Shown here piece after piece: positions 2,893 to 64,000 of a stretch of DNA of 64,000 nt (its first letter is position 1; each line of letters begins with the position of its first letter). Made by a program: the position numbers and the translations under genes. This stretch comes from Ulota crispa. Its lineage: Eukaryota > Streptophyta > Bryopsida > Orthotrichales > Orthotrichaceae. The notes under the pieces were generated by a model. It saw nothing but the letters and a program-made list of their open reading frames with translations, was not told where the DNA came from and ran no database searches. The stretch covers positions 5,394,001 through 5,458,000 of the forward strand of contig OY987243.1 in NCBI GenBank assembly GCA_963920765.1, in the 5' to 3' direction.

Positions 2893-3093
2893 TTAACCCC
2901 TAAACGTCGGCACGGACAAAAAACGTCCTTTGCCTCCAAAAAAAATGCCCTTCTTATAATTTTCATGAGGGCACCATGCACTGTTGACTTTTCCAACTTT
3001 TTGAAGCAATACTATTGGTGCCCATGTGCAAAACATTGTAGAATGCTACAGGCAGGGCAAACCTTGGTGATCCATCCGTCCTTTAAGGGTTAA
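2893..3093. mobile_element. TTAA-flanked piggyBac-like MITE (short copy)
   Basis: It starts TTAA-CCCCTAAACGTC and ends GTCCTTTAAGGG-TTAA. The interior (GAGGGCACCATGCACTGTTGAC, in part) matches the elements at 4532-4780 and 5834-6207, so this is an internally deleted member of that group. It has no coding capacity. Confidence 0.6.
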
Positions 3094-3246
3094 AAGCCCC
3101 TGCTCTTCAGCAGCCAAGTACATAACAATAAGAAATCCTTAGCTTGTAGAGTTTATTCCAGTTTGAGATATATGGAGGAAATTTCCACTCTTTGCAACTA
3201 ATCTATAAGCCTACTACTAAGTAGGAGCCTACTCTGTGCCGTTTTT

Positions 3247-3424
3247 TTTAGAACCCTCTAGAATGTTTTGGTGGAAGTTGAAGCAAGAAGAGATGTTTTA
3301 AATACAGATCACCAAGCACCCTCCAATCATGTCCTTTTTCAAAAAAAATTAGAATTTTTTGGTGGAAGTTGAAACAATAAAAGATGCTCTATATACAAAT
3401 CACCAAACGTCCTCCAACCATGTT
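3247..3424. repeat. Diverged tandem duplication, about 88 bp units
   Basis: A unit containing GGTGGAAGTTGAAGCAA, then ACAGATCACCAAGC and CCTCCAATCATG, is repeated about 88 bp downstream with a few substitutions (GGTGGAAGTTGAAACAA, CCTCCAACCATG). There is no open frame. The rest of 3094-3749 shows nothing I recognise. Confidence 0.6.
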
Positions 3425-3749
3425 TTAAGAAAACCAAAAAAATGCCAATCACCCCCAGTCAAAGTATTATAAAATAGCATTGTGATGAAGGCAACTATTA
3501 TCTTTGGTTCCAAATAAGGACTATAATGATATTGCATCAAGGTTAGGCTTTGAACCATTTATTAGAGATTGATTTCTTATGAAATACACAAATATTAGAT
3601 TCTAGATCAATTGATTAGTGAGGTATTGATTTTTTGTAAACTTGAATGTTGCATTACCCATACATTGTCAACTCACTCAAAGCATGTGCTTGTATACTTG
3701 TGTATGAAGAAGAGGGTGCAATCTAATAGTGAATTTTGTAATTTTTTTA

Positions 3750-4157
3750 GGGAATTGATATGTGCACACCGGGGGGTTGATATTTGCACACCCCCCTAGG
3801 AGGTAAAGTATAGATTTCTACCATAAAAAAGTTGAATTTGAGAAATTTAAATTCAGATTTGGACTCGGAACCATGATTTACTCTAGAACCACAAAAAGGT
3901 TGCAATTAAACATTGCCCAATGAAAAAGCTTATGTTTTTTTACAATCAAAAGTAAAAGTAACACTTTTCCCCTAGCTAAACTTTTTCACTAGGTGTTGTT
4001 CAGTTGCAACCTTTTTGTGATTCTACAATAAATCATGGTCTCTAAATCCAAATCTAAATTCAAATTTTTCAAATTCAACTTTTTAATGGTAGAAATCTAT
4101 AATTTACCCCACAATGGGTGTGCAAATATCAACCCCCAATGTGCACATATCAATTCC
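3750..4157. mobile_element. Foldback MITE, family F, copy 1
   Basis: A 408 bp element whose two halves are inverted copies. It starts GGGAATTGATATGTGCACA and ends TGTGCACATATCAATTCC, and the AAAGTTGAATTTGAGAAA type arms pair across the centre near 3955. It is flanked by an exact 8-bp repeat TTTTTTTA (3742-3749 and 4158-4165). An 8-bp duplication is typical of hAT elements. Related copies lie at 31451-31859 and 49981-50374. Confidence 0.7.
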
Positions 4158-4531
4158 TTTTTTTAAACCTACAAAAGTGTTTGAAAAAGAAATGACAAAA
4201 AAAATTGGAAAATATATCTTTTTTCAATGATACTCCCTAGTATTCTAGTTTGTCACTATTCTCCTTCATTCTTGTTCTTATGTTCTCTTGACAAATGAAT
4301 TCTTTTAGAAAGTGGAGGAAAAAAGGTGTAGAATATATAACGGCCAAAAGCCTCATTCCCATTACTAGTTGAACTTAGGAAATAAAATAAAATAAATTTC
4401 AAATAACTTTCTAAGAAACACCAAGTGAGTGAAATATGTATATAATAAATGAATTGGTTTGTCATGGTCAAAGGCAAAATTGGCACACATAACATACTCA
4501 AGTTTTAATTCAACTTCAAAAGCATGTGCAT

Positions 4532-5837
4532 TTAATCCTTAAACGCGGAAGAGGACGATTTTTGTCTCTGGGCTTTAAAAAACACTATGTGAGCAGAAAA
4601 TGCAGTTTTTTGTGTGATTTTTTTCGGAAGTGATTGTAAACAATGGTCCATTGTAGAAGGCAAAAAAATTATAAAATTAATTGCACCCATATGTTTGGGT
4701 AACTCAAATTTTGAGAAATTTCAAAGTCTTGGTGTTAGGTTTTAAGTTGCCGTTATTGTAATTTTTATTAGGGCACCATGTACAATGGTCTCAAACAAAG
4801 ATTGTCAAGCCTTGTTTTTGCATTGAGAGGTCATGTCAAACATGACATGAAAATGAGGTCAATTGGCCACTTTTTTTTCTTGTAAGTTTTATATCTCATT
4901 CTTGCCCCAATCCCAACCAAGCATACCAAATTTCAACCCCAAAAAATCAAAATCCAAATTTTGATAATTTTTTTTGTGTAACAAATCATGGTTTTACATG
5001 GTGTTACAAGAAAATTGATTGAAAAACAGTGATGATGAATTTTGGAGATTTGATAGCATGGGTATATAGGTAGCATCCATATGCACATCTGTGTGCAAAT
5101 CTTCCATGCTAAAAATACCCCTTAAGTAAAACAAAATTGATCTTTGTAGGGTTTAGTGTGACCCGTGATATGTCCAAATTTTGTAAAATATATATTTTCT
5201 TGTGATAATCAAATTTTGCTATTTAACTCATACATTGTGACTAAGATTGTACCTTTGAACATGCTATTGTGTTTCTTTGGTGAAAAACTAACTAAAAAAT
5301 AAAAATATATATTTTACAAAATTTTGACATATCACGGGTCACACTAAACCCTACAAAGATCAATTTTGTTTTACTTAAGGGGTATTTTTAGCATGGAAGA
5401 TTTGCACACAGATGTGCATATGGATGCTACCTATATACCCATGCTATCAAATCTCCAAAATTCATCATCACTGTTTTTCAATCAATTTTCTTGTAACACC
5501 ATGTAAAACCATGATTTGTTACACAAAAAAAATTATCAAAATTTGGATTTTGATTTTTTGGGGTTGAAATTTGGTATGCTTGGTTGGGATTGGGGCAAGA
5601 ATGAGATATAAAAATTACAAGAAAAAAAAGTGGCCAATTGACCTCATTTTCATGTCATGTTTGACATGACCTCTCAATGCAAAAACAAGGCTCAACAATC
5701 TTTGTTCGAGGCTACTGTACTATTGACTTTTTCAACTTTCAAAAATAATATTTTAGTATGTGGGCACCACTATAGAAACCACTGTTCACTATAATCACTA
5801 TAGAGGGGGCAGGCATGGTGACCACCCCCGGTGTTTA
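4532..5837. mobile_element. TTAA-flanked piggyBac-like MITE split by a palindromic element
   Basis: The left end is TTAA-TCCTTAAACGCGG and the right end is degenerate, reaching the TTAA at 5834-5837. The outer parts (4536-4783 and 5718-5833) align with the neighbouring element 5834-6207: both have a TTTTTTTC.GAAGTGATTGTAAACA-like block and a TTGACTTTT.CAAC block. The middle, 4784-5717, is a separate insertion. Without it the element is about 370 bp, matching its neighbour. Confidence 0.5.
4784..5717. mobile_element. Near-perfect 934 bp palindromic insertion
   Basis: Two arms of roughly 420 bp are inverted copies with only scattered mismatches, around a loop of about 90 bp near 5205-5297. CCTTGTTTTTGCATTGAGAG on the left faces CTCTCAATGCAAAAACAAGG on the right. 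The edges are flanked by TAC (4781-4783 and 5718-5720), and the midpoint of those edges coincides with the symmetry centre near 5251, which supports the boundaries. It has no open frame. A transcript through it would form a long hairpin RNA. Confidence 0.7.
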
Positions 5838-6207
5838 ACTCTTAATCGCCGAGGCGAACGCTCTGCTGCAGCTGAAAAAACCAAATTACAGAATCAAAAA
5901 ACTTGTTTTCCATCGGATTTTTTTCAAAAGTGATTGTAAACACAGTGTCCATCATGGATGGCAAAAAACTATCTCATTAGAAGCATTCATGTTTTTTGGT
6001 AATCAAAATTGTGAGAAGATTCAGAGACATAGTGATAGGTCCCAAGTTGCCCTTAGTGCAATTTTCATGAGGTCTGCAAGCAATGTTGACTTTTGCAACC
6101 TCTAGAAACAATTCTACTCGTGCCCAGTTGCCCACCTATGAAAACAACACTATAGAAAGCTACAAGTAGGGCAAGCCACGATCACCCACCCGACGCTTAA
6201 GGGTTAA
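5834..6207. mobile_element. TTAA-flanked piggyBac-like MITE
   Basis: It starts TTAA-CTCTTAATCGCCGAGG and ends CCGACGCTTAAGGG-TTAA, 374 bp in all. It shares its left TTAA (5834-5837) with the right end of 4532-5837, so the two relatives are abutted. A second GGGTTAA follows the right end. Confidence 0.55.
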
Positions 6208-6585
6208 GGGTTAAAATTTAAGTGAAGATACTCATTGCCACTCAACACTCAATTTAGCCCTTATGTATTTGTGGTTTGCATTCTAAACAAAGAACGTATA
6301 TCTAAGGTGGTATATAAAACAAAATTGTTAAATGAATGATGTATGAAAAATACACGGAGTGCAATATGAACACAAATACATGAAGCAATGTTTGAAATTT
6401 TGACTCTCCTCAATAAAAATTCTACATTTCTCATTTTTAACTAATTTTTTTAGTGCATACACTAGTTATTGCCTACATACTTGTACTATAAGTAGAAGTT
6501 TTCCCAAAATCTCGTGCAAAATCTAACCATTCCATTTGATTCAATTTTTTGTACATTTCAATGGATTATATCTCTATCATTATTT
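6208..6585. other. AT-rich spacer, nothing recognised
   Basis: No repeat ends, open frames or RNA genes that I can support. Confidence 0.5.
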
Positions 6586-8215
6586 TTAATCTCCCCACTC
6601 TTTTGACATGATGTGAGCCGCAATGGTTTTGGGCAGGTACCTGTGATTGGAGATTTTTATATTTTAGGTTGAAATTGTAATGGAATGTAGGAACAAGGTT
6701 TGTCTTTTATATGTACTAAATTTCATGATGTTTGGAATTATGGGTAAAAAGTTATGACTTTTGTTTTTTTCATTCAACAAGTAGCTTGGGCAAAATTTAA
6801 AAATCACTTTTTTCATAAACAAAAACTTTGAATTGGTTTAGGAGATTTATGTGAATGTAGGAAGCTTTGAATCATTCCATTTTGATCGACAAGATGAAAA
6901 TTATGAGGATTTTTAGTTTGCAAGCAGTTATGGATTCTCTACTCTAAAATAAACTTTGAAGTCCTTTATTTTACTCAATTTTCATTATTTTGGAAAAAGA
7001 CAAAACCAAAGGATGTAGATTGTTTATTACAATGTTATGACCATTGGGATTGGCATTTTTCATTTCCATAATTAGATTCTTAACAATTTTGTGTTTTGAG
7101 TCATTCTCTACTTCTTTTTACCTACTAATTTTGTCCCATATGTTATACAATTCCAAATGATTTGAAACTTCTTTAACATGTACTTTACTTAGGTGGAAAA
7201 GGACCAAGCCCCCTTTTGGGGGACAAATGGGATTTTGGGCATGTACCTATGGCTAAACTACTTTGCGTGATTTTTTTGAAAATTTTATGGATGATGGGGA
7301 GTTCAAAGATTTATGTGGGCATCCAATTTTCCTTCATTTTGACATTTATTGAAGAAGTTAAAAATGAATTTCTAGAAAACAAGCAAAATTGGGCAGCCCA
7401 AAAACTTCTTTAAAATTTGCATTTAAAAAAAATAAAAATAAGAAGTAGGTTTTTTAGACTTATATATACATAGGGAGCTTTGAATCATTCAATTTTGATT
7501 AATGAGATGAAAGTTATGAGAAGATTTCGTTTGCGGGTAGGTGTGGTTTTGAGAGAAACCACACCTACCCTCAAACAAAATCTTCTCATAACTTTCATCT
7601 CATCAATCAAAATTGAATGATTCAAAGCTCCCTATGTACATAAGTCTAAAGAACCTATTTTTTATTTTTATTTTTTTTAAATGCAAATTTTAAAGAAGTT
7701 TTTGGGTTGCCCAATCTTGCCCGTTTTTGGAAATTCATTTTTAACTTCTTTAATAAATGTCAAAATGAAGAAAAAATTGGATGCCCATGTAGATATTTGA
7801 AGTCCTTACTTTCAGTAAATGTTTCAAAAAATCACAAAAAGTAGATTAGATGTAGGTACATGCCTAAAATCCATTTGTCCCCCAAGAGGACAATTGGTCC
7901 TTTAGGGGTTAAATAGAATAAGGAATTTAGAGAAGCATCACCCACATGCCCTTTTTCTTTAGGAATTTCACCTTTTGAAGGATAATTGCCCGCTTTTTCA
8001 CAAGACGTTTTTGAACATTCAAACCATTCTAACTTCCAATCCACTCAATGAAAAACTCTGAAATTTTTTCTGCATCTTCTAAAACTATTCTTCTACAAGA
8101 TTCTTCAATCACATGCGCATAAAAATGTTTTTGTTTTCATATTTGATTAATGCTCTAAAAATGGCAGTTTTGGAGAGTTTTTGGTGAAAACTTTGCTTGG
8201 TCCTTCAGAAGTTAA
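6586..8215. mobile_element. Long TTAA-flanked piggyBac-like MITE carrying a nested relative
   Basis: The outer parts are an inverted relative of 27827-28747. ACCATTGGGATTGGCATTTT, CATGTACTTTACTTAGGTGG and, at the far end, GTTTTTGGTGAAAACTTTGC then TTGGTCC all occur there in the opposite orientation. The edges are TTAA-TCTCCCC (degenerate) at 6586 and GGTCCTTCAGAAG-TTAA at 8212-8215. Removing the nested 7199-7912 leaves about 916 bp, close to the 921 bp of 27827-28747. It has no transposase. Confidence 0.6.
7199..7912. mobile_element. Foldback piggyBac-like MITE nested in 6586-8215
   Basis: A roughly 714 bp palindrome centred near 7553 on a GTAGGTGTGGTTT / AAACCACACCTAC hairpin. Each arm resembles the left half of 54808-55760 (GGGGGACAAATGG, TTTTGGGCATGTACCTA, GATGAAAGTTATGAGAAG). 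The right end is intact (GGTCCTTTAGGGG-TTAA); about 10 bp of the left end appears lost. It interrupts the host element between ACTTAGGTGG and ATAAGGAATT. Confidence 0.65.
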
Positions 8216-8853
8216 ATGAGCTCTCAATACTATGAAGTGCCCTTCTATTCCATTCAAATTTATGCGATCAAATCATGCCCGCTATCAGTGAATGGCCTTG
8301 CAAAAATGCCAAAATTAAAAGGTAAAGAAAAACAGAAAAATGTAGGAAATTCAAGTAGAATCTTTGATAGGCCTGGTGTAAGTGATAATTAGCGAGGGTG
8401 CTAATGCAATTGTAGATTACCACTAAAAAAAACAACACCAATTTTTGAGAATGTTTGTTTGGACTTATATAGGAAGATTGGGGTCAATTATCGACATTTA
8501 TATTAAAAAGATACATATAAACTATATTATCTCACATTAGTTAAAGACACTTCGGAATATAATGATAAACGAGGAATTGTTGTTTTCAACTCTAAAGATG
8601 CAATAACTAGTGTAACCCATGTGTCCTATGGACACACTTTGGAAAATTCGATGGCACAATTAATCTCATAGTGTCAAATATTATAATTTGATGCCTATTA
8701 TAAATATGTAAAAAAATTAACATGAAATTTGATAAAATTTGATAAAAATAATGTCACATACTCTACATTAGTCAAAAAGCAAAGTGTTACATATTCTCAT
8801 CAACTTGATCTTCATCTGCACTCTCTATAGACAACTTAGTCTCCATTGCTCCT

Positions 8854-9515
8854 TTAAACCTCTCAACCCTTCAACAGCCCTGGAATTTTGGAGTATATCA
8901 AGACTTGCTTGAAAGTGAACAAAATGTTGGCATTTTGATCAATCTTATCAATTTTCTTTGAAATGTAACCATACGAATTCAAGGTAGACATGTTATAGAT
9001 AGCATAGGAAAAGAAATCACAACCATATCACTTATGGATTGAAAGACTATAATGTTTGATTATGAGGGTGTTAAAATTGTGAAAGTGATTTGAAATCTTT
9101 CAATCCTCTTTTTGCATCTCAAACCTAAAATCAAGGATACCAAAAAAATATGAGTATGTAAAGTATAACATGCATAACTCCAATCAAAGTACAACTTCTC
9201 AAAATCTTTTATACAATTTTTTTAAATGAAAATTTAATGTGATTTTTTATCCAAGCTCTAGTGTACTTGAGGCTCATTTCCAAGAGCTTTCAACACTAGA
9301 AAGTGAAGATTTGCAATGAACACCCTTGCACAAAATCTTGAATAAACAAATCATGTTAATTCATTTTCAAGATCAAACTCTTGATGTTGAAATTAGACTT
9401 TAACAAGAATTTAAACATAACAAAATGCACTAAAAAAATATTAAGGAAACTTGGGGCATCCCTAAATGAAACTTAGAGGGGCGCAATTTGAGCCCCTTGG
9501 GCGTTGAGGGGTTAA
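8854..9515. mobile_element. Possible TTAA-flanked MITE inside the Helitron-like element
   Basis: The right end is clear: CCTTGGGCGTTGAGGGG-TTAA. The left end TTAA-ACCTCTCAACCC is a weak match to its complement. The sister Helitron copy at 44008-45539 lacks a block here, which fits an insertion, but the left boundary is uncertain. Confidence 0.35.
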
Positions 9516-9952
9516 ACCCTAAAACTCACTTCCACCATAATTGAGCACAAAATCCTCTTCTCACAATCACTTGATGTATAGAACTAAATTACACTCTAAA
9601 TTATTGCAAAGTAGACGTTCAAATTGGAAATTCCATTTCCTCCACAAGAAAATAATTCTTACTCTTTATCCGCACACTCCAATTTCAAACTTTACCCATG
9701 CAATAAAATATTTGTCTTTGTTTAGCAAACATTCCCTTACATTAAAACGTTTTTTGTTTTATACCCAAAGTTTTTTACCCACACAATAAAAGGAACATCA
9801 TTTTTTTTGCACTCATAAAAATATTATTTATTTTTTACCTACACAACTTTTTTAACAACATCAAAGGCAAGTTATCTACTATCTATAAAAAAAAACTCAT
9901 GTTTGACCTGTCAATTTGGCCATCACTTACCGGTCTTACCAGCTACACTTGG

Positions 9953-10250
9953 GGGACATGGGCGCATGCAGGACATGGGTGTATGGAGGACATGGGTGCA
10001 TGGGGGACATGGGTGTATGGAAGACATGGGTGCATGGGGGACATGGACAAATGGGGGACATGGGTGTATGGAAGACATGGGTGCATGGGGGACATGGACA
10101 AATGGGGGACATGTGCGCATAAGAAACATGGGCATATGGGGGACATGTGCGCATGAGAAACATGGGCATATGGGGGACATGGGCGCATTGGAGACATGGG
10201 CGCGTGGGGACATGGACACATGGGGGGCATTGGTGCATGGGGGGCATGGG
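9953..10250. repeat. Minisatellite of 17-bp units, about 17 copies
   Basis: The unit is about GGGGACATGGGYGCATG on the + strand. Variant units (GAAGACATGGGTGCATG, GGGGACATGGACAAATG) alternate and give higher-order periods. Because 17 is not a multiple of 3, long open frames run through it in all six frames; these are artefacts of the repeat, not genes. The + strand is G-rich. Confidence 0.9.
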
Positions 10251-14094: not shown

Positions 14095-14205
14095 TTAACC
14101 CCCGAAGGACTCCTGAAGGACCAGGCGTTCAAATTTTGAACAATATTAGGTTTTAATCGTGTGCTGGTCTGTCAGCAATTCTTTTTCTCTAGCACAGTTT
14201 TCTCC
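14095..14205. mobile_element. Fragment of a TTAA piggyBac-like end
   Basis: TTAA-CCCCCGAAGGACTCC, followed by a second AAGGACC block, resembles the family left end. No matching right end was found, so this is a fragment. Confidence 0.35.
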
Positions 14206-14940: not shown

Positions 14941-14942
14941 TA

Positions 14943-16418: not shown

Positions 16419-18789
16419 ATGAGGCTTCTCATGGAGAACCGGCATTGCGAAATTGGCGTGACAGTGGCCTTCGCTCTGCTGCTTGCATCCTTGCACTTCT
16501 ACGTTCTTGGTTAGCTTCTCGTAACCTGCGTCTTGTCCTGTTTATATCGAAGTATATTCAGGACCTCAATGCTGACCCGATCGTTTGAGCTTTCAGTTGC
16601 TGCATGAACTATTTCGAGGTTGTTGGTTTATTTAACTCCGTTTAGGATCCTTATTGTTGTGATACTGTGCTTTCAATTTGATGTCCTCGTGAACAAAGTT
16701 GGTGCTCTGAGCAAAAGCTGCGGCAGAGTTGTCGTTCAACTGTATCTAGCTTCTTGATCCTGGAGTGAGCGGAAGGTACTTGAAAATCACATGATTGTAA
16801 TGAAGTTGCGGACACGTCCTGCGTTTTGAAGGCGGTTCGAATATCGCATATGATTTTCATGACTTTGGTTCCACAATGATTTTACCACCTCTCGCTCGCA
16901 GAGGCAGTACTGTTCACTTCGTAGTTCGAGTCTCCCACTGTTTTAGTGGTCTCGCTTTGCGTGAGCTCAATGTCGGAATCTTGGTGGTTGTAGCCTTCGG
17001 AAGGAACTTTTTAACGATTGAGCCTTTGTCGAGCCTTTTCTAGTTCGACGTTAGTACGTAGTGTCGCCTGTGCTGTACAGTTGCTTCGAGTTGTTCCTGT
17101 TTATTTCAAGTTGATGGCGGACTCTCTGAATACAGTGAATGATTTGACACACATGCAGTTGATACTTGTCATCAGTAAGGTAGCAGCACCCATAACCGTC
17201 AAATTAAGGGTTTTGAATATGATGATATTTAATAAACATCTAGCAAATTATACGATCCTATTAGAGAAAAATGATGAGTTTGCACTTTGAATGTATTATT
17301 TAGATACTGTGAGAACAAGCTCTGAATTTTTAAAGAGCAAACTGCCATTGTACCCATAATCAACACTAAGGTTACTAAGGTTTCATGTTCACATGTTGTA
17401 CATCCTTGTAGCACAGATTTTTCAAGAATTTAGAGGTGATGGTTATGGGTACAGTGATGGTTATGGTTAGGTACAATGATGGTTATGGGTGCAGTGATGG
17501 TTATGGGTGCTGCTACCTTATATTGTCCTGGAATCCAATCGTTTCACGTCTTTGTTGTCCGATATGAACTATAAATCCCACTATATTACATGCACAGATT
17601 GCTTCAGGAATGCGAAATGTAGAAACTTCGAGTCACAGAAATTGCAAAGATCTTTTTTCTCTACGAAGGGCGTCATTTTCGCAATCACTCCATGTTTAAG
17701 AAACAAACATCCTATCTAGCGTACGATAACCGCAATTTTTTTTGTGTCATGTTCATTGCGGTTCACAGAATCATCAAAGATTTAGCTAGATCCTCATTCC
17801 GAACATGACAGTGTTGGAGAATGGCATTGATGTATCTGATATTACACTTTATTCAACAATTCTGGTTTGTTAGATCGTTTCAGAGGTGCCAACTAATTTC
17901 TATTGAAACCTTGAAGGTCTATGTCTCCTTGTTTTGTCTACTCAACCTTTCGTATGTGTTGAGAAGCTATAGGATTCAAAGAAATTTAATTTGCAAAGAG
18001 GATGTTTTTGAACTACTTCAGGGCGTACTGTGTTTTTTGTTTTTATGTCGATTTTAATATTTGTGCTATTTTACCCAAATTTGTTTGTGAATCATTCAAT
18101 TTTCGCTCAGTTGCTGTGATGATTTGTATGTTCAGGAGTGGTTGGAGGGGATTTGCCGATGCGTGAATTACGCGAGGAGAGGGGTTCAGGTAGACCTCAA
18201 GGTCGGAGGCTTGCCACGCAGCAGTGGTGTATAGCGAGACCTAACCTCGACAACGCCAACTATCAAGGTGCATTGGACTGGGTGTGCGGGCCGCTCTCCG
18301 GTCAAGGACAAGTCAATTGTGGGCCTCTTCAAGCAGATCAGAATTGCTATCTACCTAATACGTACCAAGGCCATGCTAGTTGGGCCTTCAATTTATACTT
18401 CCAAACCCATGGTCAAACAGCGCAATCGTGCGACTTCCAGGGCACGGGAATCATCACCTCCACTGATCCCAGTGAGTCCTCCATCCTTGGAACATTAGTA
18501 GGCTTTCCTGATTTAAGTAGACCAGGCTTATGAAATTTGTGATTGACGTAAACCTTTAAGCATTGAAGATACTGTTCCTTTGTTGAAACTGTTATTCTTC
18601 ATTTTCGCATTCCTCGTCCAATTGGGGTTTGCTGCATGCAATCGTCCTTTTAGCTGACTCTATTAATTAAAGATTCCTGCAGCTAGTTGATGATCTAGGT
18701 TGTGGACTCATTACCAATCTTTTCCATTGTTCTGTGCAGGTACAGCGACCTGTCCATACATGGGGTCTAACGGGTACGTTTACAGATGA
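16419..18789 (+). CDS. Secreted X8/CBM43 callose-binding protein (PDCB-like)
   Basis: Exons 16419-16509, 18136-18471 and 18740-18789 join in frame (phase 1 at both introns; donors GTTAGC and GTGAGT, acceptors TTCAG and TGCAG) to give 158 residues. Residues 12-30 (IGVTVAFALLLASLHFYVL) form a signal-peptide-like hydrophobic stretch. A short basic linker leads to the X8 domain at about 60-147: WCIARP, ALDWVCG, VNCGPL, NCYLPNT, HASWAFNLYFQ, SCDF and TSTDPS. All six conserved Cys are present (62, 81, 92, 101, 129, 147), the last supplied by exon 3. X8 domains bind beta-1,3-glucan (callose) in the wall and at plasmodesmata. No hydrophobic GPI tail follows. Either the protein is simply secreted, or a donor-like GTACGT at 18774 leads to exons I could not find. 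Intron 1 (1.6 kb) holds the MITE 17178-17518. In-frame ATGs at 16383 and 16431 are alternative starts. Confidence 0.88.
17178..17518. mobile_element. TA-flanked MITE, family R, in intron 1 of the X8 gene
   Basis: The ends are AGGTAGCAGCACCCATAA and TTATGGGTGCTGCTACCT, with TA outside (17176-17177 and 17519-17520). It is 341 bp, slightly longer than its relatives at 37265-37577 and 51379-51692 because GTGATGGTTATGGGTAC is tandemly repeated near its right end (about 17431-17512). It has no coding region. Confidence 0.8.
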
Positions 18790-18809: not shown

Positions 18810-19051
18810 TTAATCATTAAAGGACGGAGCTACTATAATACATAATATGTACGCTGCTGTATAACTGGCATTTGCTACCAACAAAAAGTTTTAATTTGGG
18901 ATTTTGACTACCTCACAAGAACAGCATTTATCTACATTCTAATTTCTTTGTTGATCTCACATGTAATAAAGGTGTGGATGCACTCCAAATACAAGAAAAA
19001 TACACCGTATTGTACTGGTCGGAAAGGGCTGCTTCGTCCTTTAGGGATTAA
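18810..19051. mobile_element. TTAA-flanked piggyBac-like MITE just after the X8 gene
   Basis: The left end is TTAA-TCATTAAAGGACGGAGC and the right end CTTCGTCCTTTAGGGA-TTAA, 242 bp. It aligns along its whole length with 38720-38961 (ACTATAATA, GCATTTGCTACCAACAAAAA, AAGTTTTAATTTGGGAT). It begins 21 bp past the X8 stop, so it may lie in the 3' UTR or in an alternative last intron. Confidence 0.8.
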
Positions 19052-21316: not shown

Positions 21317-22299
21317 TTAACCCTTTAGTGACCATGGTTGATTTGGGGGGGGAGCGCCATGTTTGCTTGTATATAGTAGAAACAACCATAGCACGGGACC
21401 TCACAATGAAAGCAATTTGATCTAACCGGTTTAAATGTTGCAACAGATTGTGGCTTCTAGTTGAAAAAGAAAACTTGAGAATCAAGGCTTTAGAGTAGAA
21501 GTGCGACTTACTTGAAGAGAGGGGTGAACAAAAACTAAAAAGATTCTCAGCTCTACAGTGCCTCGCTCATTCTGCAAAATCTTTTGCTTTCAGCACTTCC
21601 TCCAGGAAGGGGTTTGCACTTGGCATGTTCAGCATGTCTACTTATGAATTTCACCCAAAAATTGCAACCTTTGCGCTTCCTTGTCAAGTTCATGGCATTT
21701 TTTTAGAGGGATCAGTTCTCATGTATACAGAGGTAGCCACACGAATACGACAAATTGGACTTTCTTGGACTAGCAACATGAGGAATTGAATTGGTTCAAC
21801 CTCTCTGGAGTATGTGCATGAATTTAGTGGCGCCTTCATATTTGCAATTGAACGGTGCAACAACGACATATCCAATGGAATACGGAACCAAACATGCTCA
21901 CATACGGGGTGGGCCAAGTACAAATACTTTGTGCATCTTTTGCATATCACCCACACCTGGCACCTAATCTTTCAAGCAAACTCTCGCGGTTCCTGCACCC
22001 TGGAGTGTTCCCTATTCCCTATGCATTCCATTCATACCAGACTTGAAGCCAAGTTCTCCGTATCCCACTATATTTCTTTCTCCATGAACTACTCTCAACG
22101 TCATGTGACCGTCACTAAATTCCTTACAGCTAGCGCATCTTAGGTCTGATTGAGCCAAAATTTGGCTCAGGATGTGCAAGAGAACATGCTCTAACTCTAT
22201 CCCTTTTTGATTTTTTCCAAATTCCATGTACTCCACCTTCACACAAGCATAAAAGGCAAAAAATGACCACCAGTGGTTGACCCGTCACTAAAGGGTTAA
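21317..22299. mobile_element. TTAA-flanked piggyBac-like MITE, GTGAC variant
   Basis: The ends are TTAA-CCCTTTAGTGAC and GTCACTAAAGGG-TTAA, a perfect 16-bp inverted repeat including the TTAA. It is 983 bp, among the longest in the window. An open frame of about 109 codons (21814-22143) resembles no transposase I know. Its right TTAA overlaps the TA used by the element 22299-22697. Confidence 0.75.
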
Positions 22300-25758: not shown

Positions 25759-26445
25759 TCTAATATATATAAAAGAATCTAGTGGGTTGTTTTGGATGAA
25801 AAATAAAATAAAGCAAAGTTACACTAAAGTATGACAAATTATTGGAAGTTACACCACTCACTGCAAGTTATACCACAACACTTTATTTTATCCATGTACA
25901 ACACTATCTTTTATTTGCTTCACCAAAAGTTAACAACAGGTCACTGGCAGTTGCACAACAACTTTCTCTTGGCCAAAGGGTGGGATGGGGATAAGAAGCA
26001 CAAAGATAAGAGGCATAGGAATAGGGAGCATGGGGAAAAGAGGCATAGGAATAGGGGACACGAGGATAGGAGGGCACGTGGATAGGGCTCTCATGCAAAG
26101 ATAGGAGGGCACATGCAAGGATATGGGGCATGAGAATAGGTATTCTTGGAGATAGGGGGCACGGGGATAGAAGGCATGGGGATAGGAGAGCATGGAGATA
26201 GGGGGCATGGGGATAGGAGCATGGAGATAGGGGGCACAGGAATAGGGAGGCACAGGAATAGGGGGCACATGGATAGGGATGCACAGGAATAGGGGGGCAC
26301 AGGGATAGGGAGGCATAGGAATAAGGGGAACATGGATAGGAAACATTGGGATAGGAGGGCACGGGGATAAGATTGCTATTGCACAATTTTTTTATTGCAA
26401 GGATATTTTAGTTGCCTCTGTTGATAAAACGGGTACGTAAACTAG
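25759..26445 (+). mobile_element. Non-autonomous Helitron with internal minisatellite
   Basis: It starts TCTAATATATATAAAAG after an A and ends AAACGGGTACGTAAACTAG before a T, so it sits in an A|T site without duplication. The block TCACTGGCAGTTGCAC..CAACTTTCTCT just before the array is shared with 28993-29429 and 29430-33044. It has no Rep/helicase. Confidence 0.7.
25977..26370 (+). repeat. G-rich minisatellite inside the Helitron
   Basis: About 25 degenerate units near GGGGGCACGGGGATAG. Unit length varies from 14 to 18 bp. Frequent GGG runs could allow G-quadruplexes. Long reading frames across it are repeat artefacts. Confidence 0.85.
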
Positions 26446-27826: not shown

Positions 27827-28747
27827 TTAACCCTTAAAGGACCAAGCAAAGTTTTCACCAAAAACTATTCAAAACTGCCATTTTTAGAGCATCAACCAAA
27901 TTTGAAAACAAAAACATTTTTATGCATATGTGACCATAGGATCTTGTAGAAGAATGGTTTTAGAAGATGTGGAAAAAATTTCAGAGTTTTCCACCACGTG
28001 GATTGGAAGTTAGAATGGTTTGAATATTCAAAAACGTCTTGTGAAAAACCGGGCAGCTACCCTTCAAAAGGTGAAATTCCTAAGGAAAAAAGGCCGTGTG
28101 GGTGGTTCTTCCCTAGATTCCTTATTCCACCTAAGTAAAGTACATGTCAAAAAAGTTTCAAATCATTTGGAGTTGCACAACATATGGAAAATATTTAGTA
28201 AGCAAATAGAAGTAGAGAATGATTGAGAACACTAAATTGTTAAGAATTTAATTATGGAAATGAAAATGCCAATCCCAATGGTCATAATGTTTTCATAAAC
28301 AACATTCATCTTTTGGTTTTGTTTTTTTCCCAAAATGTTGAAGATTGAGTAAAATAAAAGACTTCAAAGTTTATTTTGGAGTAGCAAATCCATAACTACC
28401 CGCAAACTAAAAATCCTCATAACATTCATTTTGTTAATCCAAACGGAATGATTCAAAGCTTCCTATATTCACATAAATTTCCTAAACCAATTTAAATTTT
28501 TTGTTTTTGAAAAAAGTTATTTTTAAAAATCTACCCAGGCTGCCCCTCAAATGTAAAAAACAACATATTAGGCCATAACTTTTTACTCATAGTTCTAAAT
28601 GTCATGAAATTTAGTGCATATGAAAGATAAACCTCATCCCCAAATCCTGTTAAAATTTCAGCCTATAATATGAAAAGCTCCAATCACAAGTACCTACCCA
28701 AAATTGCTATGTTTCTAAAAAAGGGGGTCTGGTCCTTTAGGGGTTAA
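27827..28747. mobile_element. TTAA-flanked piggyBac-like MITE, long type
   Basis: The ends are TTAA-CCCTTAAAGGACCAAGC and GTCTGGTCCTTTAGGGG-TTAA, 921 bp. The interior is related to 6586-8215 (inverted) and partly to 54808-55760. No transposase frame or DDD motif is visible. Confidence 0.8.
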
Positions 28748-28992
28748 CATCTCTCTGATTGTTTTGGTTTTTTAATACCAATTGTCATGTCATTTGAGGG
28801 CCAAGTATTTGTACTAATTTGTAAGACAAAAACAAAGGGTAATTGGTGTGTCCTACAAAGGCTAGGCTAGGCTTTGTTGGTTGTCAAATGTGTGAAAATG
28901 ATCCCTTGAGGCCACTTATATAGTTAGAATTTTAACCTCTAAAGCTCTGAACAATGGAATTTGGCAACATAGTAATTTTGGGCAGGCTATTA
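28748..28992. other. Short spacer
   Basis: Nothing recognised between the TTAA element and the Helitron pair. Confidence 0.4.
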
Positions 28993-29429
28993 TCTATATT
29001 AATAAAAAAATAGCGTTCAGTTAGTTAGGGCCTATCATATAATGGCATTCAATTAGTTAGGGTTGGGCATAAATTAGGCTTGGGCATGACTAGGATTGAA
29101 AAGGTATAAGTGGATAAAGTAAAATCACCTATGACTCTCTTTTATCTGCTTCATTAGATGTTAACAATTAGTCACTGGCAGTTGCACCACAACTTTCTCT
29201 CTGCCAAAAGAGGGCACGGGAATAAGGGGTACGGGAATAAGGGGCACGAGGATAAGGGGGCACGAAGATGGGAGGTCATGGGGATAAAGGGGCCCGGGGA
29301 TAAGGGGGCACGGGGATAAAGGGGCACGGAGATAGGGGAGTACAAAGATAGGGGGCACGGGGTTAGGGGGCATGGGGATAAGGGATGGAGGGGGCATAAA
29401 TGCCGTTGGTACGACAGGTAGTATACTAG
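28993..29429 (+). mobile_element. Non-autonomous Helitron, first of a head-to-tail pair
   Basis: The 5' end TCTATATTAATAAAAAAATA follows an A. The 3' end is CCGTTGGTACGACAGG (degenerate hairpin), then TAGTATACTAG. The next base begins the 5' TC of the second Helitron. A minisatellite occupies 29206-29393. It is 437 bp with no coding region. Confidence 0.75.
29206..29393 (+). repeat. G-rich minisatellite in the first Helitron
   Basis: About 12 units close to GGGGCACGGGGATAAG, the same type and position as in the Helitrons at 25759 and 29430. Confidence 0.85.
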
Positions 29430-34028: not shown

Positions 34029-34383
34029 GTACGTGCATAGTCATAGTACTGTAGGGGTTAAGTCCCTCTTTACCCTTCCATTACCTTCAAGTCTTGTTTG
34101 ATGGCATTTTAGGGAGCCTACAAGACAGAGATCTTGTATCTATGGCAAATTGCAAAATCATAAACAAGGGATGTTCCTTGCTGTTTTGTTTCAATTCTAG
34201 TTCTATTTAAAACAAAATAGATTCTTTTAAAATAGAAACAAAGGTCATTGTGACTGTGTTGTTTTGTAGGGATATATCTAACAATTGTACGGATTGGACA
34301 TTAGACACATATATATATATGAATTGGAGATTATACACATATACTGATTAGCATTAGGCACATATGTATTGCATGGAGTGGCA

Positions 34384-38719: not shown

Positions 38720-38961
38720 TTAACCTTTAAAGGACCGAGCTACTATAATATGTAGTATGTACAATGTTGTATAACTAGCATTTGCTACCAACAAAAAGTT
38801 TTAATTTGGGATCTTAACTACTTCACTAGAACAACATTGATCTATATTCTAACTTCTGTGTTGATCTCAACTGTAATAAAAGTGCAGATGCATTCCAAAC
38901 ACAAGAAAAATACCTCGTATTGTATTGGTCACAAAGGGCTGCTTGGTTCTTTAAGGGTTAA
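38720..38961. mobile_element. TTAA-flanked piggyBac-like MITE, 242 bp type
   Basis: The ends are TTAA-CCTTTAAAGGACCGAGC and GCTTGGTTCTTTAAGGG-TTAA. It aligns along its whole length with 18810-19051 and has identical length. Confidence 0.8.
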
Positions 38962-51726: not shown

Positions 51727-51958
51727 TTAACCCTTAAACGTCAAAAAGGCCCTTTGCAACCAGTACAATATGGGGTATTTTTCTTGTATTTGAAATGGAT
51801 CCACACCTCTACAACATTTGAGATCAACAAAGAAGTTGGAACATGGATATATGTGGTTCTAGTGAGCTATTTGAGATCTCAAGTTAAAAATTTTGTTGGT
51901 AGCAAATGCCAGCTACACGGCAATGTATCTACTATGCCCCCTGAAGTTTAGGGGTTAA
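51727..51958. mobile_element. TTAA-flanked piggyBac-like MITE, 240 bp type, inverted
   Basis: The ends are TTAA-CCCTTAAACGTC and GAAGTTTAGGGG-TTAA. The interior is the reverse complement of the type at 18810 and 38720 (TTTTGTTGGTAGCAAATGCC, ACAATATGGGGTATTTTTC). It is 232 bp. Confidence 0.75.
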
Positions 51959-54525: not shown

Positions 54526-56052
54526 ATAGTGCATTTAGGTTGCCTCATACTAATTTCTTCACATTCCACAATATTTAAATATTTACCATGACTACAATAA
54601 TTTTTGTCAGTAATTACAGTAACAAACAATGGAGGAAGCAAGCAAACTAAGTTTGGGTACAACAACAAACGTCAAAGTCACCGAGCAAGGAAGCTAGAAC
54701 TTTACACAAAAGCAGGAATTATTGTAGCATAAAGAGAGTAACATGCCCCTCCAGGTAACCCAAGGTGAGTCATGAGGTAACTTTGCCAAGGTAAGGCAAC
54801 TTAATTGTTAACCCCTAAAGGACCAACTGTCCCCTCGGGGGACAAATGGATTTTGGGCATGTACCTATAGCTAATCTACTTTTTGTGATTTTTTGAAACT
54901 TTTGTTGAAGGTGGAGAATTCGAAGATCTATGTGGGCATCTAAATTTTTCTTCATTCCGACATTTATTGAAGAAGTTATGCATGAATTTTTGAAAAGGGG
55001 AGGGTGGGCAGCCAAAAAAAATCAAAATTGCATTTTTTAAAAATAAACATCTGAAATTGCTTCTTTAGATTTATACAAATGTGGATATCTTTGAATCATT
55101 CAATTTTGATTGACGAGATGAAAGTTATGAGAAGTTTTAGTTTGCCAGTAGGTATGGGACTCCCAAACCTCCATTCTTTTTGCCCCTTGTAAAATTTGTT
55201 ACTTTACTTTTTTGAGCTCTTTGTGGATTTTTTTTTTACTCTTTTTTTTCCAAGTTGTAGTAGACTAAGAGTCCTTGGATTTCGCCATTTGGATCAAAGT
55301 AATTCAAATTTTGCAATTTTACATAAATCCTCCAATCTTGCCTAGTGTATATGAAAATTTCATGGCCTTACGGCATTGCAGGATTTTACAAAGTATGATT
55401 CACACCTCCAAAACGTTTGAAAATTCTCCCACACATACCTACCTTAGTCTTCTACATGGGAAAAATAAACCTCAACTTTGCGTAGAGCAATTTTTTTGAT
55501 ACAGGAGCCGTCAAAGGCTTCTAAAATTTTTGGGCAGCAGGGAAAAAAACATTTTGTTTCACTTCAGATGTCAATATCTCACTCCTCTACTTCTAGAATG
55601 AGCTGAAATTTTGCCCACAAGTACCTTCCACAGTCTAGGACAAGATCTTACGGTTGAATTTTCAAAAATACTTTTTTTCCTACCTTTCTACTCATTCCCC
55701 CAAAAGTGGCAATTTTCAGTGATTTTCAAAGGAAAAAGGGCTTGGTCCTTTAGGGGTTAAGGCAACCTACATGCACTATTTGGTGTAGGTTGCTGCGCAC
55801 TAATTTCTTCACATTTAACACTAAATAGATACTTATTGATACTACAATCATTTTCATAAAATGAATCCTAGCAATAAACAAATTTTAACTACAACAAGGA
55901 CTTGGCAACAAAAACAATGTGAAACAACAAAATAACTTTTGCTAGACAAAGATCATGTGCAATCCTAGTATCTAAATAGTTGCATGTTTCTCCAAGTGGT
56001 CAAGCTATGAGTTGTGAGGGAACCTTCTAAGGTAAGGCAATCTAATTGTTAA
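54526..56052. repeat. Diverged tandem duplication split by a TTAA element
   Basis: Unit 1 (about 54526-54807) and unit 2 (about 55761-56048) share CTAATTTCTTCACATT near their starts and AAGGTAAGGCAA..TAATTG at their ends. Each is followed by TTAAGGCAAYCTACATG, the start of the next unit. The element 54808-55760 lies exactly between the two units. Confidence 0.7.
54808..55760. mobile_element. TTAA-flanked piggyBac-like MITE with perfect ends and an empty paralogous site
   Basis: The ends are TTAA-CCCCTAAAGGACCAA and its complement (one base differs at the inner edge). It is 953 bp. Filled flanks read TAATTG-TTAA and TTAA-GGCAACCTACATGC. The next repeat unit has the unfilled TAATTGTTAAGGCAATCTAC (56044-56063) with a single TTAA. 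The left half matches the arms of 7199-7912. It has no transposase. Confidence 0.88.
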
Positions 56053-56186
56053 GGCAATCTACATGCTACGTTTAGTGTAGAACACTTCTCCACCAAATCA
56101 TCCAAATGTAAAAGTAGTAAACGTAATGTGATTTATAACACTTATAATATCACTTCACCATTGTACAAACTTCAATTATTTAGAAT

Positions 56187-57114: not shown

Positions 57115-57894
57115 TTAACCCCTAAATGCCCAAACCCTTTTTTTTCAAAAAATACTCAAAATTGCTATTTCTAATCATTTGATTCTGAGAACAACTATTT
57201 CCTACTTGGTGCAAATCTAACCGTAAAACCTTGCACTAGATTTATGCAAGAAGACATGGTGAAAGTTACTTGCGGTTTGTCTATACAAATTGAGAGATTT
57301 GATCCTTTGAAGTTGTTATTGTATAGATTAGTTCTCCATGATCCAAATCATGTTGGACATATATATCTCCACAAATTTGCAAGGCCAATGGAGACAAGGA
57401 ACACACCCTACATGGCCCTACATTGCAAACATGTTTCTGAAATTCATAGTACATTGGAGTTTTTAGCAAACTAAATTGATGAGGGCTAATTTTGAAATAT
57501 GGAAATTCAAATGTTGGATTGAAAGAATTAATAAAATCTCTAGTAGGTGTTGCAATTCAAAATCTATTATATTATCTAATACAATAGTGTATTTATGTAG
57601 TACATCTTTGGATACACTCTATTGAAGGGCCATGCCTTCATTGATTTCTTTTGGGAGAAATCAATGAGAAATGATATGCCTAACTTGTCCCTTGAAGAAG
57701 AATAATTCATAAAACATCAATAATTTTTGAATTACAAATTCAATTTCAACAAAAATTAGATTTCCACATAACCTTTACAAAAATCAACTTCTAGCTTTTT
57801 TTTAAATGATAACAAAATCTAATAGAATAAACATGTCCAAAACCCATTTTGTCCCATGTAGGGACAATGGCCATTAGAGTTTAAAATATATCGT
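57115..57894. mobile_element. TTAA-type piggyBac-like MITE, diverged
   Basis: The left end is TTAA-CCCCTAAATGCCCAAACC. The right end is degenerate, GGCCATTAGAG-TTTAA, but is preceded by CATTTTGTCCCATG and GGGACAA, as in other long members. It is 780 bp. Confidence 0.55.
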
Positions 57895-59169: not shown

Positions 59170-59170
59170 A

Positions 59171-62100
59171 CCAAGAAAACAACATAATGATGTAAAATAA
59201 AATATTATATTAGAGGAAATCTAAACAAAGCTCATAGGATTATGATTTCCAAATCATATCACAAAATGGTCAATTGGATGAAACAACTTCCATCTTTGAC
59301 ATGTTCATTGCATTAAGCTCAAGCAAAATAAGGTATTTGTAAATAAGAGCACTTGAGTGGATGTTGTTCCAAAAATAACAACTTAGAGGTGAAATTAACA
59401 TCCTATGTTAAATGAACAATTAATTCAAAGTTAGGATGAGAAAATTAGTAAGGTGGTGAATACATAGCAAGAACGTGTTATGATCATTTTCATTGGGAGC
59501 AACACATAAACAAGAAGCTACGCTACAAGAGGCATTGTCCTAGTAACACTAGCTTGGTTTTTGAGTAAGATTCACATTTAAACTTTCTCAAGATAACTTC
59601 TCTTAACACAAAACCCCCTTTCTTGTTGTCTATACTCAATAAAATCATGGTAACTATAAAGAACTCTATGCCATAAGAGTTTCACCATTTGTTTGTATAA
59701 CAAATTGACACCTTTTGAATGTTTAATGATTTGGCACCATTTGAAAGTTTAATCCATTAAAGTCTACACACATTTCCTTAAAATTCACTAGAAATAGGGG
59801 TGGTAAACCTAGATGTGCCATTGAATCAAATATGGACCCAATTTAAATAATCCAACCATGAGAATGGGAAGAATACCTTGTTTATTGTAAATTGTCAAGA
59901 TTGCAATCAAATCTAATTGTTGGAGGTGAAATATTATAATGATTGAGGGAGCAGTAGGTGGAAAATCTCTTGATTTTCATGCTTGTGTGGTTTTGGGTAT
60001 TAACACTTCATGTGAGTTGCACTTGAGAAGGGCCTTACATTTTTAGAAAGCAAAGCTTTCCACCTTTCCAACAAGACTAGTTTCACATAAAATGGATAAA
60101 ACTAACAACCATAGGGTGTAGCTAAGTGAACAAAAAGGGTAAAAATCTCACTTTATTTACCATTTAAAAATAGTTCTATAAGAAATTTGTTAAATGCCAT
60201 GGGAAATCCAGTTGGTGGAAGTAATCAAAAATTTGCTGTAAATGTTAAATATAGGATGACAAAATTTAGAGACAAAATGATGGCACCATTTCAATAGATT
60301 TTCAAATATTGCAATTATGTTGTTATTGTAGAGAGAAACAATACACGTGTGTTACTTTAAGCAATTTAAAAAAAAACTAGGATTGTGCAATTAAAATGTG
60401 ACATTCTTTCTTGGGGGGGTCACACCGCTTTACGATTGGATACCACCTGTGATAATGGGGTAATTGAATGGGGGGTATTTAGATTCTTTAAGGTAATTCT
60501 TTCCTCCCTTTCTTTAGATAAAAGCTACTTTAGTGTATTTTAGGGTACCCTATGCTTATTTCTAAATGGTTATATGACCTAATTTTTCAAACTTTTTTTT
60601 TTACAAATACAAAAGTATCATAAGAAAAAATTATGTGTATACAATAGGTTTATAGAAGACTTTGGCCTGCAAGAAAATAGCATAAGAATTTAACACGTAG
60701 CAAGTCCCCCAAACCATACTTATGAAGCAGCCTTCCTAATCCCTAATCCATTCCTAAAATTCAGATTACCCTCAACCACTTGCAAATACATTGCCGTGAG
60801 GAGTATTTTGTAAGGAGGATGACAAGCTTAAATTGCACAGCACCCTTGCCTCCACTTTGAGCGCGCTCAAATAATCCGGGAAGAGAAAAATTACAAACAA
60901 CAAGAAAGCAATCTCAAATATGAGAATCCTAAGTGCTAGCAAGAGCAACGGTAAGCTTAGCATAACAGTGTGTAAAGAAGCCAGCATGTAAAGAATCTAA
61001 TGTGCTCACCAACACAAATCCTACTCTCACAATTCCACAACAATGCTAGCCTTTGCCAACACCCCTGACCCTTCTTCAATTACCCTACAACTTGTTGCTA
61101 AACCCTAAACCATTACTACCCAAAACATGGATAGAAAAAAACCATTTTTCATCCATATTGCTCATGAACTCTAAACCCTACACTCATCCTACTAAATTCT
61201 TTTAAGATAATCCTATAATTCCCACCCTTCTTTTTTTCTATAGTATTCTAAAATAGAGGATTATACACCACCCTATTTTACATATAATGAAGCAAGATAT
61301 AATTTTCCAATGCTATGGTAAATCTAAAAAAGATATAAAATTTATCTCCAATAAATAAAACTGACCCTATTTTTTATCTCACGTAGTTTACTAAAAACTA
61401 GAGAGTGACCTTCCCGAGCATTCTTTTTAAATATTTGATGCATTGTATTGTTACTTTGATCCATCTTTGACCAAAAATGTATAAATATTTTGAGGCCATC
61501 TATACTTCTAAGTGGGAGGATTTCCCTAAATGCGCCCTTTTCTAGAACCTTCTAAATTTTTTTAAAACTTGTACATGTATACTATATTGTATAAGCACCA
61601 TTATTTGTCAACTCATAAGCTTATACCCAATTAAATTGTCATTTTATTTGGTTGAATGCAAAATTATTGTGATCTTCAAAACCAGATCCTAAAGTTGAGC
61701 GTTTATTCTGTAGGCCAAAAACCAATCTCTGCAATCAAAATATGGTTGCGTGGTTTCTAATGGGTTAATGATTTGGCACCATTTGCATGGGTAGTAGGCC
61801 ATCAATCACTAGTGTCATTTGTCATGGGTTGACCTGTTATGCAAATCAAGTCGGATATGACTCATGATGACCTGATCAATAGATTTGGGCTTACCTGAAC
61901 AGCATCATGCACAAGATCATGGACTCAGGTTTTATTTTATCTCCTGTCTCCACTACAAGAGTATAAGTTAAGTTAAGCTTAGGTTCTTTGTATTAGAAGA
62001 GCTGCTAAACCTTTCTGAGTTGACATTTTTTTATTTATTTTATTTTGTTTCATTTTCATTGAACAAACTGATTATTAATGAAATCTCTGAAATATTATGA

Positions 62101-62996: not shown

Positions 62997-63082
62997 AATA
63001 TTTCCCATCCAACATAACATTCAGTAGCCTGAAGAGAGGTTGCCTTTCCCTCTCTTCAGGTATCATCCACGAACTTCATCAT

Positions 63083-63120
<38 letters not shown>

Positions 63121-63391
63121 CTAACATGGTTGGCTCCCACATCAACGTACATGCACTAAACTGAGCCTCTGTTTCATAAACTCTATGACAAATTTAGCCA
63201 AGTGCCCTCTTAGCTACTGATGAGTGTGGAATATTCCGTACTCTTTCATCCGGCTAGATAGAAGAGTGTGGAATATTCCGTACTCTTTCATCTGGCTAGA
63301 TAGAAGAGTGTGGAATATTCCACACTCTTCAGTTGGAGGGAGGGCAAGCGTGTTGAGTGCTACTGAATGTTATGATATGTGGATGAATATT
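62997..63391. mobile_element. Foldback-type element with AATATT..CATAACATTCAGTAGC ends
   Basis: CATAACATTCAGTAGC on the left faces GCTACTGAATGTTATG on the right, with ATCCAACA-like and GTGGATGAATATT sequence outside. It also holds a hairpin CCTGAAGAGAGG / CCTCTCTTCAGG-like (63029-63060), an (AT)n tract at 63086-63118 and the 42-bp tandem repeat. Confidence 0.55.
63222..63330. repeat. 42-bp tandem repeat, about 2.6 copies
   Basis: The unit begins GAGTGTGGAATATTCCGTAC and contains CTTTCATCYGGCTAGATAGA. Starts are at 63222, 63264 and 63306. As 42 is a multiple of 3, a short repetitive frame (RVWNIPYSFI) runs through it, probably by chance. Confidence 0.85.
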
Positions 63392-63489
63392 GAAATTTGG
63401 AGCACCACTATAACATTTTAAATTGCCACTTTCACACTTCTTGAAAAATGAAAAAAGAGAGCCTTGGAGGGCACCTTCTCATTGCCTTA

Positions 63490-63620
63490 AGGTAGCAACA
63501 CCCATAACCATCACTGTACCCATAACCATCACCTCTAAAATCTTGGAAAATCTCAGGAAGTGAATGGATGTAATTACAAGGATGTACAACATGTGAACAT
63601 GAAACCTTAATGTTGGTATT
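63490..63620. mobile_element. Truncated TA-flanked MITE, family R
   Basis: It begins AGGTAGCAACACCCATAACC after TA and continues AAGGATGTACAACATGTGAA, the inverted right half of 17178-17518. The other half is missing. Confidence 0.65.
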
Positions 63621-63642
63621 AGGTGCAATTGCAATCGGCCCT

Positions 63643-64000
63643 TTAACCCTTAAGCGCTCAATCGACTATTTTTTGGTTGCTGCCCATTTTTTGCGTGTTG
63701 CCCAAGATGAAAAAAAAACTTACTTTAAAAACTTAAAAATTTCTTAAATAGAAAATCCAATCTACTTTCCAACCTAACTTGAATCATGTCAATCCAAGTT
63801 AAACTCCATCAAGGAGATTTTTTCAAAGACAAACACTTCTAAAATTATGCTAGTGTTGTAAAATTTACTATTTTGGGAAACTAATGATGTTCTCTCATTT
63901 GAAAAGATTGCATTTTTAAAGTTTACGATATAATGTTTGTTTTTAACCAATCATGCCAAATTTTAAAATCTATGAATAAAATTTGTAATTTTGGTGAATA
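63643..64000. mobile_element. Left end of a TTAA piggyBac-like MITE running out of the window
   Basis: TTAA-CCCTTAAGCGCTCAATCG fits the family end. The right end would lie beyond the window. Confidence 0.5.

Follow-up and report, generated by a model that had tools for sequence, protein, structure and literature searches.

piggyBac-like MITEs and transposase-bearing elements with matching ends in a probable moss genome

A 64-kb stretch of genomic DNA (G000 contig C2:5394001-5458000, hereafter the window) carries a population of short elements bordered by TTAA. These are almost certainly miniature inverted-repeat transposable elements (MITEs), that is, non-autonomous derivatives of DNA transposons of the piggyBac superfamily, and their host is most probably a moss. 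A piggyBac origin had been proposed in a sequence-only reading of the same DNA, and it is now supported by elements that carry the piggyBac transposase domain PF13843 between the same ends, by a target site duplication of 4 bp, and by the homology of both end regions of one MITE, at 54808-55760, to such elements. The genome that we searched comprises 274.8 Mb in 157 contigs, of which C1 to C10 measure from 41.4 down to 15.8 Mb (sum, ∼264.8 Mb) and C11 at least 5.08 Mb.

Results

The end consensus TTAACCCYTWAANGNC occurs in the window 10 times exactly, 18 times with at most one mismatch, and 28 times with at most two; 20 first-order Markov resamplings of the window gave 0, 0.2, and 3.1 on average, respectively. 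The shared TTAA-flanked end population described in the sequence-only reading is thus borne out, and it includes 12 two-ended elements with TTAA on both edges. Together, these elements cover 8,462 bp, or 13% of the window, a sum that takes in a foldback insert of ∼940 bp and a 4-bp overlap. Twenty-one of the 28 ends lie within the twelve elements and 7 are solitary, ∼3 chance ends being expected. In ten of the twelve elements, the two terminal inverted repeats (TIRs) agree at 8 to 12 of the 12 positions after TTAA, and one end each of the elements at 4532-5838 and 6586-7912 has no recognizable TIR (3/12). These two elements call for corrections, since the first had been credited with a right end where we recognize no TIR, and the second had been assigned to a class of 780 to 980 bp and in fact measures 1,327 bp, its left TIR being the unrecognizable one. 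The window ends read CCCYT, fitting the terminal feature of piggyBac elements, whose TIRs are described in PMC2872659 as 12 to 19 bp long with CC(C/T)T termini and TTAA.

A search of the genome with the end consensus returned 28,375 exact matches (14,174 + 14,201), compared with 18 (8 + 10) for a control in which the pattern was read backwards. Over the whole genome, a stretch of 64 kb contains on average 6.6 exact ends, and the window, with 10, lies somewhat above this value. Scaling the window's 13% by the ratio of ends gives a rough extrapolation from one window, according to which such elements make up several percent of the genome. MITEs of the Kolobok superfamily have the TTAA target in common with these elements, but the Kolobok termini given in PMC6004289 are AG/RR as opposed to CCC in the window, and the presence of PF13843 in elements with the same ends is contrary to a Kolobok origin, which we regard as extremely improbable.

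The symmetry of TTAA hides the length of the target duplication, and we therefore counted variant edges. At canonical sites, a TA duplication followed by a terminal A would look identical, and MITEs of the Tc1/mariner type, with terminal A...T and a preferred TTAA context (TTA/A...T/TAA), would be indistinguishable from those of the window. Tc1/mariner elements, Stowaway included, duplicate the 2-bp TA. The terminus TTAACCCCTAAAGGAC had 9,807 matches in the genome, and, in addition, there were 384 (3.8%) with the outer T altered and 344 (3.4%) with the inner A altered; the two positions thus vary about equally seldom, which argues against a TA duplication. Pairing the first 100 listed places of each set, 92 and 100 of which fell in common territory, yielded 16 convergent variant pairs within 2.5 kb, compared with 1 divergent control pair. 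The same tetranucleotide stood on both sides in 11 of the 16 (CTAA in 4, TTAG in 6, and TTAT in 1), whereas the share of matches expected under independent decay is 0.198 (binomial tail, 2.9e-5), a comparison in which some pairs may depend on one another through segmental duplication. Because the variant tetranucleotides are mirrored at both element edges, the target duplication is 4 bp, and CTAA, TTAG, and TTAT targets are used at times. These mirrored edges (CTAA/CTAA, TTAG/TTAG, and TTAT/TTAT) leave a Tc1/mariner origin with next to no probability. A PIF/Harbinger (Tourist) origin, with the 3-bp TAA/TTA duplication listed in PMC10004981, was rejected on the same mirrored 4-bp variants.

We searched the genome with the profile of a single transposase domain, PF13843 (DDE_Tnp_1_7, the piggyBac domain), and obtained at least 120 matches over the cutoff (best E value, 1.3e-73), a lower bound given that 116 of 528 candidates were scored. 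Most of the matches are broken by stops, and 10 of the 120 listed are free of internal ones. None of these at least 120 listed places falls in the window, and tblastn searches of the window with four transposase stretches gave nothing at an E value of ≤1 and found the positive control, the element A4x described below; the earlier statement that the window holds no transposase is in agreement with both results. Two loci, L035 and L036, have open stretches of 472 and 476 amino acids, each with PF13843, and at an E value of ≤0.001 they match just two PDB entries, piggyBac of Trichoplusia ni (6x67) and piggyBat (9c0f). The best PDB match of L035 is piggyBat (E value, 3.6e-18), with the three Asp motifs aligned, and the third catalytic motif of L036 has N instead of D. 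In the transposase of the element L25x, two open stretches match PF13843 separately (E values, 2e-28 and 2.9e-16). According to phmmer alignments, with positions counted by hand, their TIDE, MDN, and GVD motifs align to D268, D346, and D447, which are given as the catalytic triad of T. ni piggyBac in PMC7351741. This copy carries stops and is a relic. As regards the cysteine-rich domain at the C terminus of piggyBac transposases, a CxxC stretch was seen by eye in the translation of A4x, and Pfam gave PF13843 alone for L035, L036, and the fragments of L025. When viral contigs were scanned once with the protein of L036, 5 pattern matches came up, none of which was related by tblastn.

Twenty transposase loci were viewed with 1.5-kb flanks, within which an end was found at three (L009, L014, and L018). 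Wider contexts were read for 18 loci, namely, these three, 10 of the other 17, L034 to L036, and A4 and A6, which were located via the 3' DNA of L025. Seven of the 18 contexts contain both-ended elements and four more (L012, L016, L021, and L028) a likely end pair, recognized by eye in a single copy each. A4x (C4, 8,434 bp), L25x (C5, 8,829 bp), and L26x (C9, 8,530 bp) have TTAA at both edges, and with L11x (C7, positions 2105-10137 of the joined stretch) they make four elements of 8.0 to 8.8 kb, on four chromosomes, with PF13843 between ends of the window class. Full-length elements of the kind that the sequence-only reading had suggested looking for, with the MITE ends around a piggyBac transposase, are therefore present in this genome. 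E1 (C3, 5,027 bp, edges TTAACCCCTCATCGCC / TTAACCCTTCATTGCC), E2 (C10, 5,026 bp, left edge TTCA), and E3 (C2, 5,102 bp, edges CCCTTGACCGCC / CCCTTCACCGCC) are a sister end class to the window MITEs; E1 and E2 are 90.5% alike, and their similarity stops at the element ends, within 1 bp. Lengths of 5.0 to 8.8 kb are within the known range, because the full lengths of animal piggyBac elements reported in PMC10813416 extend from 1.23 to 9.51 kb.

Two of the larger elements have features of their own. L11x contains a perfect tandem repeat of ∼590 bp (8572-9159), apparently of 8-bp units, in the interval that separates its transposase domain from its 3' end. L25x appears, by eye and from the open frames to its left and right, to be inserted in a reverse transcriptase like that of long interspersed nuclear elements (196-826 and 9759-10247, minus strand), and a genome search with its joined flanks found the filled site only.

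The MITE at 54808-55760 (953 bp; TIR, 12/12) connects the two kinds of elements. Its positions 1-179 and 526-953 match L25x at 90.0% and 80.8%, positions 1-203 and 499-953 match A4x at 80.6% and 79.0%, and positions 1-195 and 502-777 match L26x at 80.1% and 81.5%. In A4x, L25x, and L26x, the transposase domain lies between these matching end regions, and an origin of the MITE by deletion follows from the homology. A6 provides a further copy of the 3' end. In L060 (C3), the left end of the MITE continues into the L25x 3' region, of which L060 retains a longer inner part than the MITE does, as would be expected of an intermediate deletion; the match ends ∼20 bp before the right terminus. The MITE at 57115-57884 (770 bp; TIR, 8/12) is tied to transposase-bearing elements at both termini, ∼50 bp of each matching L25x, at its 3' and at its 5' end, at 80 to 81%; its left part also resembles L11x at the 3' end, with 71.5% identity over 207 bp and 77.6% over 147 bp. 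In the element at 6586-7912, the region of the right end is 84% identical to the 5' end region of L25x over 173 bp. The window elements thus are what is understood by MITEs, being short, without transposase, numerous, and provided with the ends of a partner, which was found for 54808 but not for all families.

The best 40 of 9,649 candidates included, besides the window copy, at least 39 near-full-length members of the 54808 family, with 87 to 90% identity. We fetched 20 of these, chosen by whole-element similarity. When these are aligned with the window copy, TTAA stands at both edges in 18 of 21, and the other three have one edge that reads CTAA, TTTA, or TTGC. By eye, the flanks of the copies are unrelated. 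With flanks excluded, the mean pairwise difference is 0.124 (range, 0.089 to 0.145), a sequence divergence that suggests a past, undated burst of amplification.

Empty sites were sought by genome searches with the joined flanks of 19 sites (7 + 7 + 5); in one of these searches, the best 40 of 3,072 candidates were scored and were mostly one repeat, and further relatives may be hidden. The host sequence of 54808 is a repeat dispersed in dozens of copies, and in places these lie close together on both strands. Of the 52 rows listed, 49 fall on its joined flanks (54748-54807 and 55761-55820) at 79 to 97%. A single TTAA was found in all 17 empty sites fetched (17/17), which were mostly the best matches, and an empty paralog of the site within the window (56008-56080, plus strand), 83% identical over the 75 bp that span the junction, adds one more. 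All of these empty sites reflect one and the same insertion event.

Discussion

Several observations weigh against our interpretation. The expectation that empty sites would carry TTAA, which held at 54808, did not hold at three other places: the relatives of the L003 site (82 to 88%) read CCAA in 3 of 3 cases, the sole relative of the L001 site (74%) lacks TTAA and differs by 11 bp, and a tandem unit beside the MITE at 34384 reads TTAT (79%, with gaps). It may be that the related sequences have diverged at these places. Relatives across the junction were found for only 3 of the 19 joined sites (54808, L003, and L001), and for the other 16 none was found genome-wide. In L104 and L105, which are among the 18 copies with TTAA at both edges, one terminus has no recognizable TIR, and in the variant-edge analysis, which drew on the first 100 listed of 384 and of 344 places, 5 of the 16 convergent pairs are mismatched. 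Seven of the 18 wider transposase contexts show one end or none (L015, L019, L023, L034, L035, L036, and A6, the last with the 3' coding part only), no end was visible at 7 other loci, which were viewed with 1.5-kb flanks only, and the 5' end of L36x was not found within 8.9 kb upstream of the transposase domain. Moreover, a central part of 54808, ∼300 bp long, is unmatched in A4x, L25x, and L26x. The MITE at 21317 is tied by its left 34 bp only (91% to a 3' end that lies 1.8 kb past the L36x transposase domain), that at 27827 by only ∼64 bp, which match L11x at its 3' end, and the 240-bp family, the 370-bp family, and 34384 have no tie to any transposase copy compared. Finally, we infer the past movement of the elements from comparisons of DNA sequences.

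Another reading is that most of the short families have only the ends of piggyBac elements, whether captured or convergent, and owe their movement to several piggyBac lineages instead of descending from one by deletion. Some MITE families have just the terminal ∼19 bp in common, and the transposase-bearing elements display at least two end classes, CCCYTSAYYGCC and CCCYTWAANGNC, both of which would fit such a history. On the other hand, the homology of 54808 reaches inward by ∼180 to 200 bp on the left and by 280 to 460 bp on the right. We consider that capture or convergence is a possible but rather unlikely explanation for most families.

Our working model for the window elements as non-autonomous piggyBac derivatives is as follows. 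The larger elements (8.0 to 8.8 kb, and 5.0 to 5.1 kb in the sister end class) would supply their DDD transposase, with its PF13843 domain, and internal deletion would keep the TIRs and the subterminal DNA that this transposase needs. The transposase would bind the common ends and subterminal DNA and excise the short copies in trans, and cut-and-paste insertion into TTAA, occasionally into CTAA, TTAG, or TTAT, would create the 4-bp duplication. The hairpin intermediates and seamless excision of T. ni piggyBac may, by analogy, apply here as well, and the activity has probably faded since.

The sequence-only reading was right in assigning the DNA to a plant, and the host is most likely a moss. 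In contig C157, which was read in part, an atpB-like frame, oriented oppositely, stands in a row with rbcL, tRNA-Arg(CCG), and a frame resembling accD, the atpB and accD frames being recognized by eye. The C-terminal domain of the RNA polymerase alpha subunit gave one match, on C2, and none on C157. A plastid without rpoA, rpoA in the nucleus, and such a plastid gene order are moss features, and it is on this gene order and on the location of the domain on C2 and not on C157 that the assignment rests. A second rbcL-like match (positions 54-299 of PF00016), in an open frame of 964 amino acids, lies outside C157, at G000:C97:118173-118940.

The other elements of the window vary in structure. The MITE at 2893-3093 (201 bp; TIR, 9/12) has TTAA at both edges and is 91% identical to L007 over 148 bp. 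The element at 4532-5838 is a MITE of the ∼370-bp class enlarged by the foldback insert (4780-5720), whose 438-nucleotide arms are 96% complementary and which stands outside the piggyBac set; relatives of this foldback were seen inside L26x (5011-5633) and upstream of the L36x transposase (4155-5029). The element at 4532-5838 adjoins, at a common TTAA, the MITE at 5835-6207 (373 bp; TIR, 9/12; 80% to mE3a over 233 bp). The composite at 6586-7912, whose right end is TTAACCCCTAAAGGAC, looks like two abutting MITE pieces. Two MITEs of 242 bp, at 18810-19051 and 38720-38961 (TIR, 10/12 in each), are 85.5% identical end to end, and the MITE at 51727-51958 (232 bp; TIR, 10/12) belongs to the same family in reverse orientation (82% to the first over 175 bp and 78% to the second over 209 bp). 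The MITE at 21317-22299 (983 bp; TIR, 12/12) has the variant end CCCTTTAGTGAC, that at 27827-28747 (921 bp; TIR, 11/12) is 84% identical to part of the 6586 composite over 587 bp, and that at 34384-35294 (911 bp; TIR, 8/12) lies within a degenerate tandem repeat, which flanks it. Single ends are found at 9500-9515 (minus strand, 1 mismatch) and, with 2 mismatches each, at 14095-14110, 28932-28947, and 63643-63658 on the plus strand and at 34046-34061 on the minus strand; two more, at 9512-9527 and 59749-59764 (plus strand, 2 mismatches), may be due to chance.

Apart from these elements, the window contains G-rich minisatellites with units of ∼15 to 17 bp at 9950-10250, 26151-26369, 29208-29384, and 32887-33004, which are alike by eye. 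Open stretches at 18123-18533 and 1584-2006 resemble, also by eye, an X8/CBM43 protein and an exon of a plant GTPase. Rfam at its gathering cutoffs gave zero matches in the window.

PiggyBat, which is from a bat, is distant in sequence from the elements described here. It is nevertheless (PDB 9c0f) what L035 resembles most closely in the PDB. T. ni piggyBac, as described in PMC7351741 and in structure 6x67, is similar to the present elements in its TTAA target, 4-bp duplication, and DDD triad, and phmmer matches it with L036 and with fragments of L025. In contrast to it, the elements described here are distant in sequence and reside in a plant, and those with both ends and a transposase are 5.0 to 8.8 kb long and mostly interrupted by stops. 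The coral CMITEs presented with AmiPB1 in PMC2872659 are likewise TTAA-flanked MITEs, one family of which is tied by its ends to a piggyBac-like element; they are, however, ∼100 bp long and found in corals, whereas the end homology of the MITE at 54808 extends hundreds of bases inward.

In land plants, an equivalent kind of element appears in PMC10004981, where PiggyBac is named, as a list entry, among the superfamilies of angiosperm MITEs. PMC4438587 tabulates PiggyBac among the superfamilies of all groups studied, land plants being one of the groups. PiggyBac rows in plant repeat tables amount to 1,230 in Ceratopteris, 38 in Dracaena, and 1 in Stipa, a trace by annotation compared with the 28,375 exact ends in the present genome. 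The earlier remark that piggyBac is rare in land plants is thus roughly right, as judged from these three tables and the angiosperm listing. Among the matches listed in searches of the open-access literature, we found no account of piggyBac elements in a moss. The moss genome paper PMC10619864 contains the word twice, in at least one case as part of "piggybacking", and PMC5505980, on Physcomitrella, contains it six times. MITEs of the piggyBac type were already known, and what stands out here is the host, the number of copies, and the connection with partners that bear a transposase.

We see roughly even chances that the findings extend to a wider proposition, namely, that mosses host several old and diversified piggyBac lineages, with about ten thousand or more MITEs in the present genome, that CTAA, TTAG, and TTAT are real targets, duplicated on insertion, at times, and that such a load may hide among unclassified repeats in the annotation of moss genomes. 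The piggyBac superfamily is usually seen as centered on animals, with a trace in land plants. A moss with more than 28,000 ends, with partner elements, and with a clear link to them through deletion derivatives makes the history of piggyBac in plants testable, as either old in mosses or acquired. The thousands of insertions constitute a natural record of how strictly TTAA is targeted, mirrored non-canonical targets included, and part of the unclassified repeats of mosses could be given a name.

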